The position numbers were made by a program, and so were the translations under genes. From NCBI GenBank assembly GCA_947499565.1, contig CANMOV010000003.1, forward strand, positions 372,001 to 436,000: DNA of 64,000 nucleotides, in the 5' to 3' direction. This DNA comes from an uncultured Croceitalea sp. (GTDB lineage Bacteria > Bacteroidota > Bacteroidia > Flavobacteriales > Flavobacteriaceae). The notes beneath the pieces are model-generated. The model ran no database searches. It was not told where the DNA came from and was given only the letters and a program-made list of their open reading frames with translations. How positions within the stretch are numbered: the first letter of the stretch is position 1; each line of letters starts with the position of its first letter. This document shows, piece after piece, positions 25,402-63,179 of this stretch.

Positions 25402-26511
25402 TTATTTAATATGGTCAGGCAACACATCAAAACTAAATGAAGCTTTGCCTTGGGTCGCTTTCCAATAGTTATGAAGGCTTCCCCATGAAGCATCTGGTTC
25501 TGCCTGACGAGAAAAATTCTCTAGATTAGAATGGATGTTCTCCATTTTATCCGCTTCCAATTTTTCCCTAGAAATAATAACTGTTAAAGCTCTATATTCT
25601 TTCTGCGAATTTTGATGAGATGGTACTCTTTCTCCATTGTTAGCAATCATCTCTTGTGGAGTATAAACTGTTATAGCATCTGCAGTAAATTGACCAAATG
25701 AGCCACCTGCTTGTGGGTTTTCTGCCACTTGAATAGCCTCTAGTTCTTCTGGACCAATAAGCCCCATGAGATAAAGTTCCAAATTACCATATGCAATAGA
25801 GTTTCCACCATTAGCAAAGGTCCCAAAGCCATCTTCATTATTTAGTCTTCCTTGATAACTATTCCCACCTAAACTTACCAATTCATCAAAGCCTCCTAAC
25901 TGGCCACCAACTCCAGCATAGCCCCAGTGGCCACCTACTGTAGTAGGTAAGAAATTTTTATTGGCCCATGCGTGGGCAATTTCATGTAAAAATGGTCCGT
26001 TTCTAACATATTCGGAGCGCGGCATATACATAATGCCTTTTAATTTCCCCTCGGAGCCATAAGATGCAGCGTTGTTAAAAGTATTACCCCCAATACCTTC
26101 AATACCATTGCTTACTGGTGTAAACCTACCAAAGAATAGATCATCTGGTTGTGAAGCTTCCACGGAGAGAATTATAATAAAATCATATGAATCGTTTAAA
26201 TACTCATAGGCCTTCTCCGTAACCAATCTAAGATCACCTTCTCCAGTGATAAATTTATTATACTCAACATTTGATAAAACGAAATTTGTAAAAGAACGCT
26301 CTTCGCTTAAATCAAAATTGTCATCAAAAGTAATAGCTCCTGTTTCTGGGTTCTCCTCCGGATCTGTATTTTCTTCTGGGTCATCTGTCCCATCTGCAAT
26401 ACTTTCCTCAACTATTTCATCATTAACTTCCTCTGTACTACAAGAGGTAAGTGCTAGACTAAAAAATATAGAAATAACGAGGTATAATTTATATTCAGAA
26501 ATATGGCGCAT
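25402..26511 (-). CDS. Lipoprotein with HExxH site, probable zinc metallopeptidase
   Basis: The 369-residue protein has a lipoprotein signal (LALTSCSTEE, Cys24) and an acidic linker of Asp, Glu and Pro (about 25-58). H176-E177-I-A-H180 in PFLHEIAHAWANKN is a zinc-binding HExxH helix. A His about 19 residues later (VGGHWGY) may be the third ligand. A surface-exposed metallopeptidase is the natural reading, but I cannot assign a named family. It is a single gene; neighbours are convergent on the left and a minus-strand gene on the right. Confidence 0.68.
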   Translation of the reverse strand: MRHISEYKLYLVISIFFSLALTSCSTEEVNDEIVEESIADGTDDPEENTDPEENPETGAITFDDNFDLSEERSFTNFVLSNVEYNKFITGEGDLRLVTEKAYEYLNDSYDFIIILSVEASQPDDLFFGRFTPVSNGIEGIGGNTFNNAASYGSEGKLKGIMYMPRSEYVRNGPFLHEIAHAWANKNFLPTTVGGHWGYAGVGGQLGGFDELVSLGGNSYQGRLNNEDGFGTFANGGNSIAYGNLELYLMGLIGPEELEAIQVAENPQAGGSFGQFTADAITVYTPQEMIANNGERVPSHQNSQKEYRALTVIISREKLEADKMENIHSNLENFSRQAEPDASWGSLHNYWKATQGKASFSFDVLPDHIK

Positions 26512-26652
26512 AGCATGTTTTAAGAAGGTTATGTATTATTATAACCTAGCATCATTCTTTTTATTTCAACATGTGTGTGATAATCGTTAAAATACGCGCT
26601 TAAGAAAATAGCCCTAAAACATCTTGCAATGTTTAAACACTATTAAGACCTG

Positions 26653-39629: not shown

Positions 39630-41528
39630 ATGAGTGATGCCATTAAGCACGAATGTGGAATTTCATTGATTCGATTGTTAAAACCACTCGAGTACTACAA
39701 AGAGAAATACGGTACAGCCTTTTACGGTGTAAACAAGATGTACCTTATGATGGAAAAGCAGCACAACCGAGGACAGGACGGTGCTGGTTTTGCAAGCATT
39801 AAACTAGATATGAAGCCAGGCGAACGCTACATGAGTAGGGTAAGGTCTATAGAGCAACAACCTATTCAGGACATTTTCAAACAGATTAATGGCAGAATAA
39901 ATACTGCATTAACCGAAAATCCAGATTTAAAAAACGATGTTGCACGCCAGAAAAAGGAAATCCCATATATAGGAGAGCTTTTATTAGGTCACGTTCGCTA
40001 CGGTACTTTTGGAAAAAACAGTATCGAAAGCGTACACCCTTTCCTAAGACAAAACAACTGGATGCATCGTAATTTAATTGTGGCCGGAAATTTTAATATG
40101 ACCAATGTGGACGAGCTCTTTGGAAATTTGGTAGAGCTAGGACAGCATCCGAAAGAAATGGCGGATACGGTAACGGTTATGGAAAAGATAGGCCACTTTT
40201 TAGATGATGCTGTTGCCAAAATATATAAGCAAATAAAAAAAGAAGGGTATAACAAAAGAGAAGCTTCACCCCAAATTGCTGAACGATTAAATCTTGCTAA
40301 GGTTTTACGCAAGGCTGCCAAAAACTGGGATGGTGGTTATGCTATGGGTGGATTGGTTGGTCACGGTGATGCATTTATGCTACGTGACCCGGCAGGAATA
40401 AGACCTACCTATTATTATAAGGATGATGAAGTAGTTGTAGTTGCCTCTGAAAGGCCTGCCATACAAACCGTATTTAATGTAAAATATGAGGATGTAAAGG
40501 AGCTGGACCCTGGTAATGCCATGATTATTAAAAAAAGTGGTGAGGTTTATTTTGAAGAAATTTTAACTCCAACGGAACGCAAAGCGTGTTCTTTTGAACG
40601 TATTTATTTTTCTAGAGGAAGTGACAAAGAAATTTATCAAGAACGGAAAGAACTAGGGAAACTTGTTTTCCCCCAAATATTGAAAGCCGTTAATAATGAT
40701 ATAACTAACACGGTTTTTTCGTACATCCCAAATACTGCTGAAACCTCTTTCTTTGGCATGGTTAAAGAAGCTCAAAACTCTTTGAATAGGAGAAAAGAAG
40801 AACAGATTTTAAATATTGGGGCAAGTATTACGAAAGAACAGTTACATAAAATTTTAGAGGTGCGCCCTAGAATTGAAAAGGTGGCTATAAAAGATGCCAA
40901 GCTTCGAACCTTTATAACCCAAGATAGCAGCAGAGACGATTTGGTAACTCATGTTTACGACATTTCCTATGGTTCTGTGGGTAAAGATGATAATCTGGTA
41001 ATTATTGATGATAGTATCGTTCGTGGAACTACTTTAAAAAAGAGTATTCTTAGAATGTTAGACAGACTTTCTCCTAAAAAAATTGTGGTAGTATCTTCGG
41101 CTCCTCAAATACGCTATCCAGATTGTTACGGTATAGACATGGCAAAATTAGAGGACTTTATTGCCTTTAGAGCGGCATTAGCAATGCACGAAGAACGAGG
41201 AACAACAAGTAAAATAGAAGAAATCTATAAAAAATGTCTTCGCCAAGTTAATTCAAAAGACAAAGATGTTGTGAATTATGTCCAAGAATTCTATGAGCCA
41301 TTTTCAGCGGAGGAAATTTCAAAAAAAATAGGGGAATTACTAAGTGATCCCGCGATTAACGCTGAGGTAGAAATTATTTATCAAACTATTGAAAATCTCC
41401 ATAAGGCTTGCCCCAAAAATTTAGGGGATTGGTATTTTACGGGGAACTATCCTACCCCAGGCGGCAATCGTGTTGTAAACCGTGCTTTTATCAACTTTTT
41501 TGAAGGTAAAAATGAACGCGCCTACTAG
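39630..41528 (+). CDS. purF: Amidophosphoribosyltransferase (PurF-like, long Bacteroidota form)
   Basis: The 632-residue protein has an N-terminal nucleophile Cys9 after a short leader (MSDAIKHE), class II glutamine amidotransferase regions HNRGQDGAGFA and GHVRYGT, and the PRPP-binding loop NLVIIDDSIVRGTTLKKS (about 452-468). Family enzymes make phosphoribosylamine from PRPP and glutamine, the first purine step. It is about 130 residues longer than E. coli PurF, a form seen in Bacteroidota. Some genomes also carry a shorter PurF, so whether this is the main enzyme is open. Confidence 0.9.
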   Translation: MSDAIKHECGISLIRLLKPLEYYKEKYGTAFYGVNKMYLMMEKQHNRGQDGAGFASIKLDMKPGERYMSRVRSIEQQPIQDIFKQINGRINTALTENPDLKNDVARQKKEIPYIGELLLGHVRYGTFGKNSIESVHPFLRQNNWMHRNLIVAGNFNMTNVDELFGNLVELGQHPKEMADTVTVMEKIGHFLDDAVAKIYKQIKKEGYNKREASPQIAERLNLAKVLRKAAKNWDGGYAMGGLVGHGDAFMLRDPAGIRPTYYYKDDEVVVVASERPAIQTVFNVKYEDVKELDPGNAMIIKKSGEVYFEEILTPTERKACSFERIYFSRGSDKEIYQERKELGKLVFPQILKAVNNDITNTVFSYIPNTAETSFFGMVKEAQNSLNRRKEEQILNIGASITKEQLHKILEVRPRIEKVAIKDAKLRTFITQDSSRDDLVTHVYDISYGSVGKDDNLVIIDDSIVRGTTLKKSILRMLDRLSPKKIVVVSSAPQIRYPDCYGIDMAKLEDFIAFRAALAMHEERGTTSKIEEIYKKCLRQVNSKDKDVVNYVQEFYEPFSAEEISKKIGELLSDPAINAEVEIIYQTIENLHKACPKNLGDWYFTGNYPTPGGNRVVNRAFINFFEGKNERAY

Positions 41529-41630
41529 TTTCTGCATTTTATCCTTTAGTTTGTGCAATTCATCGATGAAAACAACTATTCAACGTCATTTTGGGTCTTT
41601 TGGTAAAATCAAAAAGTAAATTAGTACTTG

Positions 41631-41701
41631 CCATAGCATAAGTAGGTTAAGTTCATGGTAAGATTTGGGGCAAAAAAGGTGGAGACTTCTCCGCCTTTTT
41701 T
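41631..41701 (+). ncRNA. Tandem small RNA, copy 1
   Basis: This 71-nt unit has a 40-nt conserved 5' part (CCATAGCATAAGTAGGTTAA, then GTTCATGGTAAGATTTGGGG), with CCAU and AUGG able to pair around a 20-nt loop. A terminator stem follows: GGTGGAG, loop ACTT, CTCCGCC, then six T. A weak -7-like TAAATTAG lies at 41617-41624; its TTTTG partner is at 41589, 23 bases away. No protein is encoded. Function unknown. Confidence 0.75.
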
Positions 41702-41847
41702 ATTGCTATAAATTTCTTCTTTAAATTCCGTAATCTTTTTCTTCAGTTTTTATAATCCGTTAGATTCAATTAAGCATTTCAACCTATTAACTTGGTTCTT
41801 ATCTAATACCTTTTGAATACCCCTAGCACTGTAATACATTTGGAGGA

Positions 41848-41917
41848 CCATAGCATAAGTAGGTTAAGTTCATGGTAAGATTTGGGGAAAAAAGGCGAAG
41901 ACTTCTTCGCCTTTTTT
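41848..41917 (+). ncRNA. Tandem small RNA, copy 2
   Basis: The first 40 nt match copy 1 perfectly. The terminator stem is GGCGAAG, loop ACTT, CTTCGCC: both arms differ from copy 1 in a compensating way, so the stem is under selection. A full Bacteroidota promoter precedes it: TTTTG at 41811-41815, 19 bases, TACATTTG at 41835-41842, with the start six bases later. Confidence 0.82.
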
Positions 41918-42064
41918 ATTGCTTTTAAGTTGCCACTTCAAGCCCTGTAATCCTTTTCTCCAACCTTTATAATCCATTTAATTTTACTACGTATTTCACC
42001 GTAATAACTGGAACCTTGTCTAAAACCTTTTGAATACCCTCAACACTACAATACATTTGAAGAA

Positions 42065-42134
42065 CCATAGCATAAGTAGGTTAAGTTCATGGTAAGATTT
42101 GGGGAAAGAAGGCGGAGAAATCTCCGCCTTCTTT
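42065..42134 (+). ncRNA. Tandem small RNA, copy 3
   Basis: The 5' 40 nt are identical to copies 1 and 2. The terminator stem is GGCGGAG, loop AAAT, CTCCGCC, extended by GAA/TTC. The promoter is TTTTG at 42028-42032, 19 bases, TACATTTG at 42052-42059. Start to start it is 217 bases from copy 2, exactly the spacing of copies 1 and 2. Confidence 0.82.
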
Positions 42135-42258
42135 ATGTTTGAACATCAATGATTTATCTTCTTTTTCCACAAAAGAACTTCGTTCTCGCGCATTTTTTAA
42201 ATCAAAAAATTGTTAAATATCCTTTGTTATTTCTCACAATACCAGTAATTTAGTTTTG

Positions 42259-42330
42259 CCATAGCATAAGTAGGTTAAGTTTATGGTAAGATTTGGGACG
42301 AAAAGGGTGGAGGCTTCTCCACCCTTTTCT
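42259..42330 (+). ncRNA. Tandem small RNA, copy 4
   Basis: The conserved part differs by C to T in TTTATGG and in its last bases (TGGGAC). The CCAU/AUGG pairing survives. The terminator stem is GGGTGGAG, loop GCTT, CTCCACCC. A TTTG at 42223-42226, 19 bases, then TAATTTAG (one mismatch to TAnnTTTG) gives a promoter with the same geometry. It is 194 bases after copy 3 and has a unique spacer. Confidence 0.78.
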
Positions 42331-42356
42331 ATTGTATTAATTTGAATTCTCTTCAT

Positions 42357-42414: not shown

Positions 42415-43023
42415 TTACTTGTTCGCAGCGTATAGCTCTGCTACTTTGTCCCAATTGATTACATTAAAAAAAGCTGATACATAATCTGGTCTTCTGTTTT
42501 GGTAATTTAAATAGTAAGCGTGTTCCCAAACATCCAAACCTAAAATAGGGTGGCCGCCACAACTAACACCAGGCATAATTGGATTGTCTTGATTTGGAGT
42601 AGAGCATACTTCAACTTTACCTCCTTTATGCACACAAAGCCAAGCCCAGCCGGATCCAAAGCGTGTTCCTGCAGCCGCACTAAATTTTTCCTTAAAAGCA
42701 TCAAAAGAGCCAAAAGCATCGTTAATAGCATTTGCTAATTCCCCTGAAGGCGTTCCTCCTCCATTAGGAGACATTACACTCCAAAAAAGGCTGTGATTAT
42801 AAAATCCGCCGCCATTATTTCTAACAGCTCCGTTATTCATATCTAAATCAGAAAGAATAGCATCTATGGATTTACCTTCTAGTGCTGTTCCAGAAATTGC
42901 TGCATTAAGTTTAGTTGTATAACCATTGTGATGTTTTCCATGATGAATTTCCATAGTGCGAGCATCTATATGTGGTTCTAAAGCATCATGAGCATATGGT
43001 AAACTTGGTAGTTCAAAAGGCAT
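42415..43023 (-). CDS. Superoxide dismutase (Fe/Mn family)
   Basis: The 202-residue protein is a complete Fe/Mn SOD. Metal ligands lie in HHGKHHNGY (His near 27), FYNHSLFW (His near 81), and [15 protein letters not shown] (Asp and His). The C-terminal [11 protein letters not shown] signature is intact. It converts superoxide to oxygen and peroxide in the cytosol. Mn or Fe cannot be decided by eye. It has a TACTTTTG -7-like site upstream. Confidence 0.96.

Positions 43024-63090: not shown

Positions 63091-63179
<89 letters not shown>

Follow-up and report, generated by a model that had tools for sequence, protein, structure and literature searches.

Four small-RNA units of about 73 nt lie in tandem between a purF-like gene and a superoxide dismutase-like gene in the 64,000-nt stretch of DNA analyzed here (the window), which derives from an uncultured Croceitalea species. 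Re-reading of the sequence and a repeat tool, which recovered a four-copy family in the window, confirmed the unit starts given in the preliminary description (41631, 41848, 42065 and 42259; steps of 217, 217 and 194 nt). As also described there, the first 40 nt, referred to as the core, are identical in copies 1 to 3, and copy 4 differs from them at 2 of 40 positions. Since the unit was also read in 25 other genomes (26 loci including that of the window), the array is not a product of chance. The following features were assigned.

39630..41528, + strand: purF, amidophosphoribosyltransferase-like, upstream neighbour (name from translation)
41538..41584, + strand: direct repeats TTTATC (41538), TTCATC (41559) and TTCAAC (41579), 21 and 20 nt apart
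41617..41624, + strand: -7-like box of copy 1, TAAATTAG, no clear -33 partner at 19-nt spacing
41631..41704, + strand: sRNA copy 1, core 41631-41670, terminator stem 41672-41684 / 41689-41701
41638..41650, + strand: putative seed 1 of copy 1, predicted hairpin loop AUAAGUAGGUUAA; equivalent place in every copy
41661..41670, + strand: putative seed 2 of copy 1, open linker AGAUUUGGGG; equivalent place in every copy, last base A in copy 4
41811..41842, + strand: predicted Bacteroidota-type promoter of copy 2, TTTTG 41811-41815, 19 nt, TACATTTG 41835-41842
41848..41920, + strand: sRNA copy 2, core 41848-41887, terminator hairpin 41888-41917
42028..42059, + strand: predicted promoter of copy 3, TTTTG 42028-42032, 19 nt, TACATTTG 42052-42059
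42065..42137, + strand: sRNA copy 3, core 42065-42104, terminator hairpin 42105-42134
42223..42253, + strand: predicted promoter of copy 4, TTTG 42223-42226, 19 nt, TAATTTAG 42246-42253
42259..42334, + strand: sRNA copy 4, variant UUUAUGG / GGGAC, core 42259-42298, terminator hairpin 42300-42329
42415..43023, - strand: Fe/Mn superoxide dismutase-like gene, downstream convergent neighbour (name from translation)

Architecture and distribution of the RNA

The proposal that each unit possesses its own promoter and terminator is supported at the level of the sequence, with the reservation that copy 1 has no clear -33 box. The pair TTTG-N19-TAnnTT(T/A)G was recognized by eye upstream of copies 2, 3 and 4; the -7-like box of copy 1 lacks a clear partner at this spacing. 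TAnnTT(T/A)G is close to the -7 box of Bacteroidota and starts 11-16 nt before CCAT in 55 of the 66 distinct copies with 110 nt of upstream sequence. As expected for the phylum, a sigma-70 promoter scanner reported nothing at the locus. The three direct repeats upstream of copy 1 represent a possible activator site of this copy, which we presume might be of the LytTR type. When spacings of 8-33 nt were scanned, the repeat T(T/C)NA(A/T)C recurred at 20 nt in 17 of 57 copies (mononucleotide-shuffled mean 0.33) and at 21 nt in 9, and a test at 21-23 nt gave 10 of 57; the copies are related and therefore not independent.

The predicted fold of each unit starts with a small hairpin at the 5' end, continues with an open linker and closes with a strong terminator. 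In all four copies the terminator stem pairs as described, with z-scores of -2.9 to -4.5 against dinucleotide shuffles; a terminator scan called just two of the four in the window. Comparison of the copies revealed double changes in 11 of the 13 pairs of the terminator helix. In the 5' helix one of 10 pairs showed double changes and four of 10 never vary; as this helix is mostly invariant, covariation neither proves nor refutes it. The CCAU/AUGG stem of the preliminary description is able to form, but the best fold adds inner pairs, which makes AUAAGUAGGUUAA the likely loop rather than the 20-nt one. A 1-nt difference after AUGG between two groups, detected by eye, would shift any reading frame crossing it and thus argues against a coding role.

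The four copies had been suggested to provide dosage or to act as sibling regulators, and both parts of this suggestion appear to apply, each to different copies. Copies 1 to 3, which share one core, look like dosage copies. Copy 4 looks like a sibling kept under separate control, because it combines its own promoter block with a recurrent variant RNA: the conserved block upstream, ending in CACAATACCAGTA(A/T)TTTAG, was found in ten loci, and the RNA variant occupies the final place in the array, adjacent to the dismutase gene, in 10 of 26 loci including the window's own. A fifth near-copy elsewhere in the same genome (L005) was dismissed as a chance match, as it lies near the end of a coding sequence with no terminator after it, as read from the sequence.

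A covariance model based on 34 of the 55 distinct copies detected the RNA in 241 of 299 sampled Flavobacteriaceae genomes and in 194 of 236 genera, a presence list from which filters lose some weak matches. Core and following stem are widespread in related genomes, with 1-7 matches per genome in the genomes listed. Carriers among the matches listed include Zobellia, Maribacter, Cellulophaga, Flagellimonas, Winogradskyella, Aquimarina and two Flavobacterium species. Searching 59 related genomes by BLAST, with a composite copy as query, gave matches in 26, all from the family of the window. Sampling across the whole class yielded matches in 8 of 295 genomes, six of them within the family and two others with weak scores, and no core was visible in the latter two. 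Blastn of the RNA against phage and plasmid collections gave no match, nor did the exact core pattern in viral contigs. At the 26 loci, which represent one per genome and of which some are cut by contig ends, the fetched flanks included a purF homologue at 24 loci, a homologue of the dismutase gene at 21, and both genes at 19. For this reading ten loci were set aside (duplicates within the genome of the window, second loci belonging to the same array, L005 and L036). At least five genomes (G012, G013, G014, G021 and G031) harbor a further copy elsewhere. Taken with the enrichment of target sites described below, distribution and covariation support the earlier view that the RNA is kept by selection.

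Complementary sites at start codons

The hairpin loop had been regarded as a possible target-recognition site. A search of the 299 family genomes with the pattern AACCTACTTAN{0,8}ATGAAR identified its complement, AACCTACTTA, 0-8 nt before ATGAAR at 102 places in 88 genomes; 99 of the 102 sites belong to genomes that carry the RNA. The sole scrambled decamer tried occurred at 19 places in 18 of the 299 genomes. The reversed pattern gave approximately 53 matches by hand count (46 in genomes with and seven in genomes without the RNA), so that the excess over this control is about twofold. A site was present in 85 of 241 RNA-carrying genomes versus 3 of 58 without the RNA (Fisher p = 8e-7). Because genome size confounds part of this association, the comparison was repeated with genomes of at least 3 Mb, where 73 of 190 and 2 of 19, respectively, possessed a site (p = 0.02). 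Relative to the scrambled decamer, sites numbered 99:13 with the RNA and 3:6 without it (p = 4e-4); relative to the reversed pattern, the ratios were 99:46 and 3:7 (p = 0.03). The genome lists for these comparisons were assembled by hand. A search for the 10-mer without ATGAAR displayed, by eye, no general excess over the control, and 20 chosen regions (22 places) were read.

The sites are mostly located 1-5 nt before the start codon (67 measured; 0-8 nt allowed). When all 102 were read, 65 opened a frame of at least 80 codons, compared with 2 of 19 scrambled controls. A lipobox-like start was found in 24 of the 65 frames versus 18 of 369 background genes, and 38 more had a hydrophobic start according to a loose signal-peptide rule, applied without a background count, which also flagged cytosolic-looking enzymes (e.g. 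L232 and L266). The remaining 37 sites precede shorter frames. In 14 of these, corresponding to 14 of the 102 sites, a membrane protein of 22-43 aa (MKN..KRI..LL....ASKVLFSDF) is encoded directly 3' of the motif (L220, L240, L251, L259, L285, L288, L311 and others); two members were scanned and had no Pfam match. Recurrent genes among the 102 sites encode a CSDETTVF lipoprotein (13 times) and a lipoprotein of about 123 aa (four times). Of 18 target-side proteins chosen for Pfam analysis, nine matched no family. The assignments for the others include a ricin-type lectin domain, an esterase, a 7TMR-DISM protein, a histidine kinase, and both a peptidase and an adhesin that carry type 9 secretion tails.

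Upstream of many of these sites a CCAAATCT-like sequence was first noticed by eye. When every hexamer within the upstream 40 nt was ranked by enrichment, CCCAAA, CCAAAT, TCCCAA, ACCCAA and CAAATC came first. They are the complement of the linker AGAUUUGGGG or overlap it, and their order relative to the loop complement fits antiparallel pairing. Of the 102 sites, 79 open frames of 40 codons or more, and CCCAAA was present at 23 of these, versus 2 of 369 background starts, all from one genome (p = 5e-17), and none of 19 controls. When related proteins were clustered, using the 67 sites with frames of at least 60 codons, CCCAAA or CCAAAT occurred in 10 of 37 clusters versus 6 of 369 background genes; with one member drawn per cluster, a mean of 8.2 of 37 clusters contained either hexamer. 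Sites for this second putative seed are found at a minority of targets.

In the genome of the window itself the signal is weak. The pattern search found one strict seed-1 site in it, which has no obvious seed-2 site. Pairing energies were scored for 369 genes, taken from the window and a further 400 kb, with starts chosen mechanically. Ranked by energy alone, the loop was marginal and the other segments were not unusual. The best loop match among the 369 genes, AAACCTACTTATATATGAAA, precedes a lipoprotein gene with a ricin-type lectin domain, and the same motif precedes the homologous lipoprotein in two other genomes (L201 and L210). It was equalled by 2 of 60 shuffled RNAs; the best matches of nucleotides 1-23 and of the linker were equalled by 23 and 53 of 60. 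Lipoproteins as a class (18 of the 369 genes) paired no better than other genes. TonB-receptor-like starts (30 of 38 Plug-domain matches in this genome) show a modest tendency to pair better with the loop, with a mean energy of -6.1; the mean was -5.3 over the 369 genes and -4.7 (sd 0.4) with shuffled RNAs. Before one TonB-receptor-like gene (L122, C3:336087) CCCAAATCT ends 13 nt upstream of the chosen start, which makes this gene a possible seed-2-only target. In the window (26380-26580, - strand), AACCTTCTTAAAACATGCTATG at a lipoprotein-like gene start at 26511 resembles the complement of the loop plus the RNA 5' end; 23 of 60 shuffled RNAs had an equally good best match.

In one genus (g147), several copies have the loop changed to AUUAGUAGG or GUUAGUAGG, some of them with changes in the stem as well (L097-L101, L105-L108 and L110). 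Hand counting gave 47 AACCTACTTA and 75 AACCTACTAA entries in this genus, with genomes not sorted by RNA type. Reading of 30 of these 122 entries found seed-2 hexamers upstream of two, and neither the old nor a compensating motif was convincing in this genus.

Pooled over the genomes of the family, complementary sites in distant mRNAs appear to exceed chance. Their enrichment before start codons is consistent with the loop as target-recognition site, as originally suggested.

Comparison with known RNA families

An Rfam search of the window assigned no family at threshold to the array, and the tRNA gene at 63105-63178 alone reached one. Flavo-1, the candidate suggested in the preliminary description, is absent from the 54 Rfam matches down to E = 10 at the locus. 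Alignments showed that matches to STnc40, sraA, RmaA and microRNA families rest mainly on the terminator hairpin, as does the best match to STnc40 (RF02057), with 43.4 bits versus a gathering score of 45 on the opposite strand. A full-text literature search retrieved no paper with the core sequence, and topic searches listed none that dealt with this RNA. Sibling sRNAs such as OmrA/B and Qrr also exist in several near-identical copies; they use Hfq, and OmrA/B have envelope-protein targets. We know of no sequence relation between them and the RNA described here.

The closest known RNA in design is FopS (RF04319), described as a family of paralogous sRNAs in B. thetaiotaomicron with nine intergenic, four antisense and one 3'-UTR-derived member among 14 (PMC11697453). 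According to the same source, the likeness extends to multicopy RNAs of about 65-70 nt, promoters of the sigma-ABfr type, a conserved 5' seed part before the terminator, and pairing near start codons of outer-membrane protein genes (PMC11697453). A short stretch, UUCAUGGUA..AGAUUU, aligns between the RNA of the window and the FopS model. Membership in FopS was nevertheless rejected: the model gives 17.8-18.3 bits at the locus versus a gathering score of 56, and its best match in the whole genome (23.9 bits) lies at another place than the array. Conversely, the present covariance model produced weak matches at best on 12 of 30 FopS loci. FopS carries a single-stranded 5' seed directly before the terminator, whereas a 5' hairpin and then a linker are predicted here. 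Moreover, the binding partner of FopS is RbpB, an RRM_1 protein, whereas no RbpB-type RRM_1 domain (PF00076) was found at E <= 0.001 in the genome of the window, which is 97% complete; 2 of 14 control genomes gave a match. FopS pairs with translation initiation regions of SusC-type transporters; for the RNA of the window start-codon sites exist, but the recurring ones belong to lipoproteins and small proteins. The FopS-like RNAs L084 and L091 (G574), from a different family within the class, carry UUUUCAUAGAUUUGG, which shares AGAUUUGG with the flavobacterial linker, a possible link between the two RNA families.

GibS (RF04182) of B. thetaiotaomicron likewise has two seeds, R1 and R2, which act on translation initiation regions (PMC11697453). 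It scored 20.8 bits versus 115 on the opposite strand, and the likeness is one of design without a demonstrated sequence relation. Within the Flavobacteriaceae, the regulatory RNA Rfp18 of F. psychrophilum, for which protease targets have been proposed, is said to pair through its third stem-loop and is therefore built differently from the RNA of the window (PMC9723704).

A putative two-seed regulatory RNA and alternative readings

We consider it probable (roughly 0.78) that each unit is a gene for a non-coding regulatory RNA acting in trans, which has two seeds and would pair at start codons and probably repress. Each unit would be transcribed from its own promoter and end at its own terminator. 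The RNA is predicted to display AUAAGUAGGUUAA on the 5' hairpin, ahead of the open linker AGAUUUGGGG and the terminator. The loop would pair with AACCTACTTA just before start codons, as suggested by complementarity and enrichment, and at a minority of targets the linker may additionally pair with a CCCAAATCT-like sequence slightly further upstream. Covering of the ribosome-landing zone would most likely repress translation, a direction suggested by the position of the sites. The repressed set would comprise lipoproteins destined for export, proteins that are secreted or sit in the outer membrane, and tiny membrane proteins. Extra copies would add dosage, and copy 4, with its own promoter and variant stem, probably answers a different signal.

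The position directly before the start codon is the classic place for blocking ribosomes, and the location of most of the 67 measured sites 1-5 nt upstream of it speaks against the RNA pairing as proposed but activating or stabilizing its targets, for example by opening leader structures. FopS is reported to repress from the same position (PMC11697453). Activation is unlikely on these grounds, even though deletion of Rfp18 in F. psychrophilum reportedly lowered two metalloprotease mRNAs (PMC9723704). It is distinctly less probable still that genomes of the family ordinarily use AACCTACTTA before ATG as a translation or promoter signal, which the RNA matches by chance or shares. Such a signal would accommodate the 37 of 102 sites that open no 80-codon frame and the approximately 53 matches of the reversed pattern, but few genomes that lack the RNA have the site (3 of 58), and the hexamer most enriched upstream is complementary to another, separate segment of the RNA.

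That the RNA mainly sequesters a protein in the manner of CsrB, with the near-invariant core as protein-binding site, would account for core conservation beyond the apparent need of one seed and for the tandem copies. We give this reading an equally small chance, as the complements of both open segments are enriched at start codons and no RRM_1 protein was found in the genome of the window. Tandem copies with drifting spacers, and further copies elsewhere in some genomes, might also suggest that, instead of a regulatory RNA, the units form a repeat that is mobile or selfish, consisting of attenuators, terminators or remnants of insertions. This is highly improbable: homologues of purF and the dismutase gene both flank 19 of 26 loci, phage, plasmid and viral collections contained no match, and the promoter box keeps a fixed distance in 55 of 66 copies.

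Building on the two-seed regulatory RNA, we tentatively advance, at somewhat short of even odds, a broader view. A near-invariant, family-wide RNA of this kind would control surface lipoproteins, exported enzymes and very small membrane proteins as one regulon throughout the Flavobacteriaceae, without an RRM chaperone like that of FopS (none in the one genome checked). As such it would be a counterpart, perhaps a distant relative, of FopS with a separately controlled sibling copy. Flavobacteriaceae are major degraders of polysaccharides in sea and soil, and little is known of their regulatory RNAs. An RNA present throughout the family, whose target code has two readable parts, would offer concrete candidate targets for post-transcriptional control of the cell surface, and may bear on the question whether multicopy RNAs that block start codons arose once or repeatedly in the Bacteroidota.
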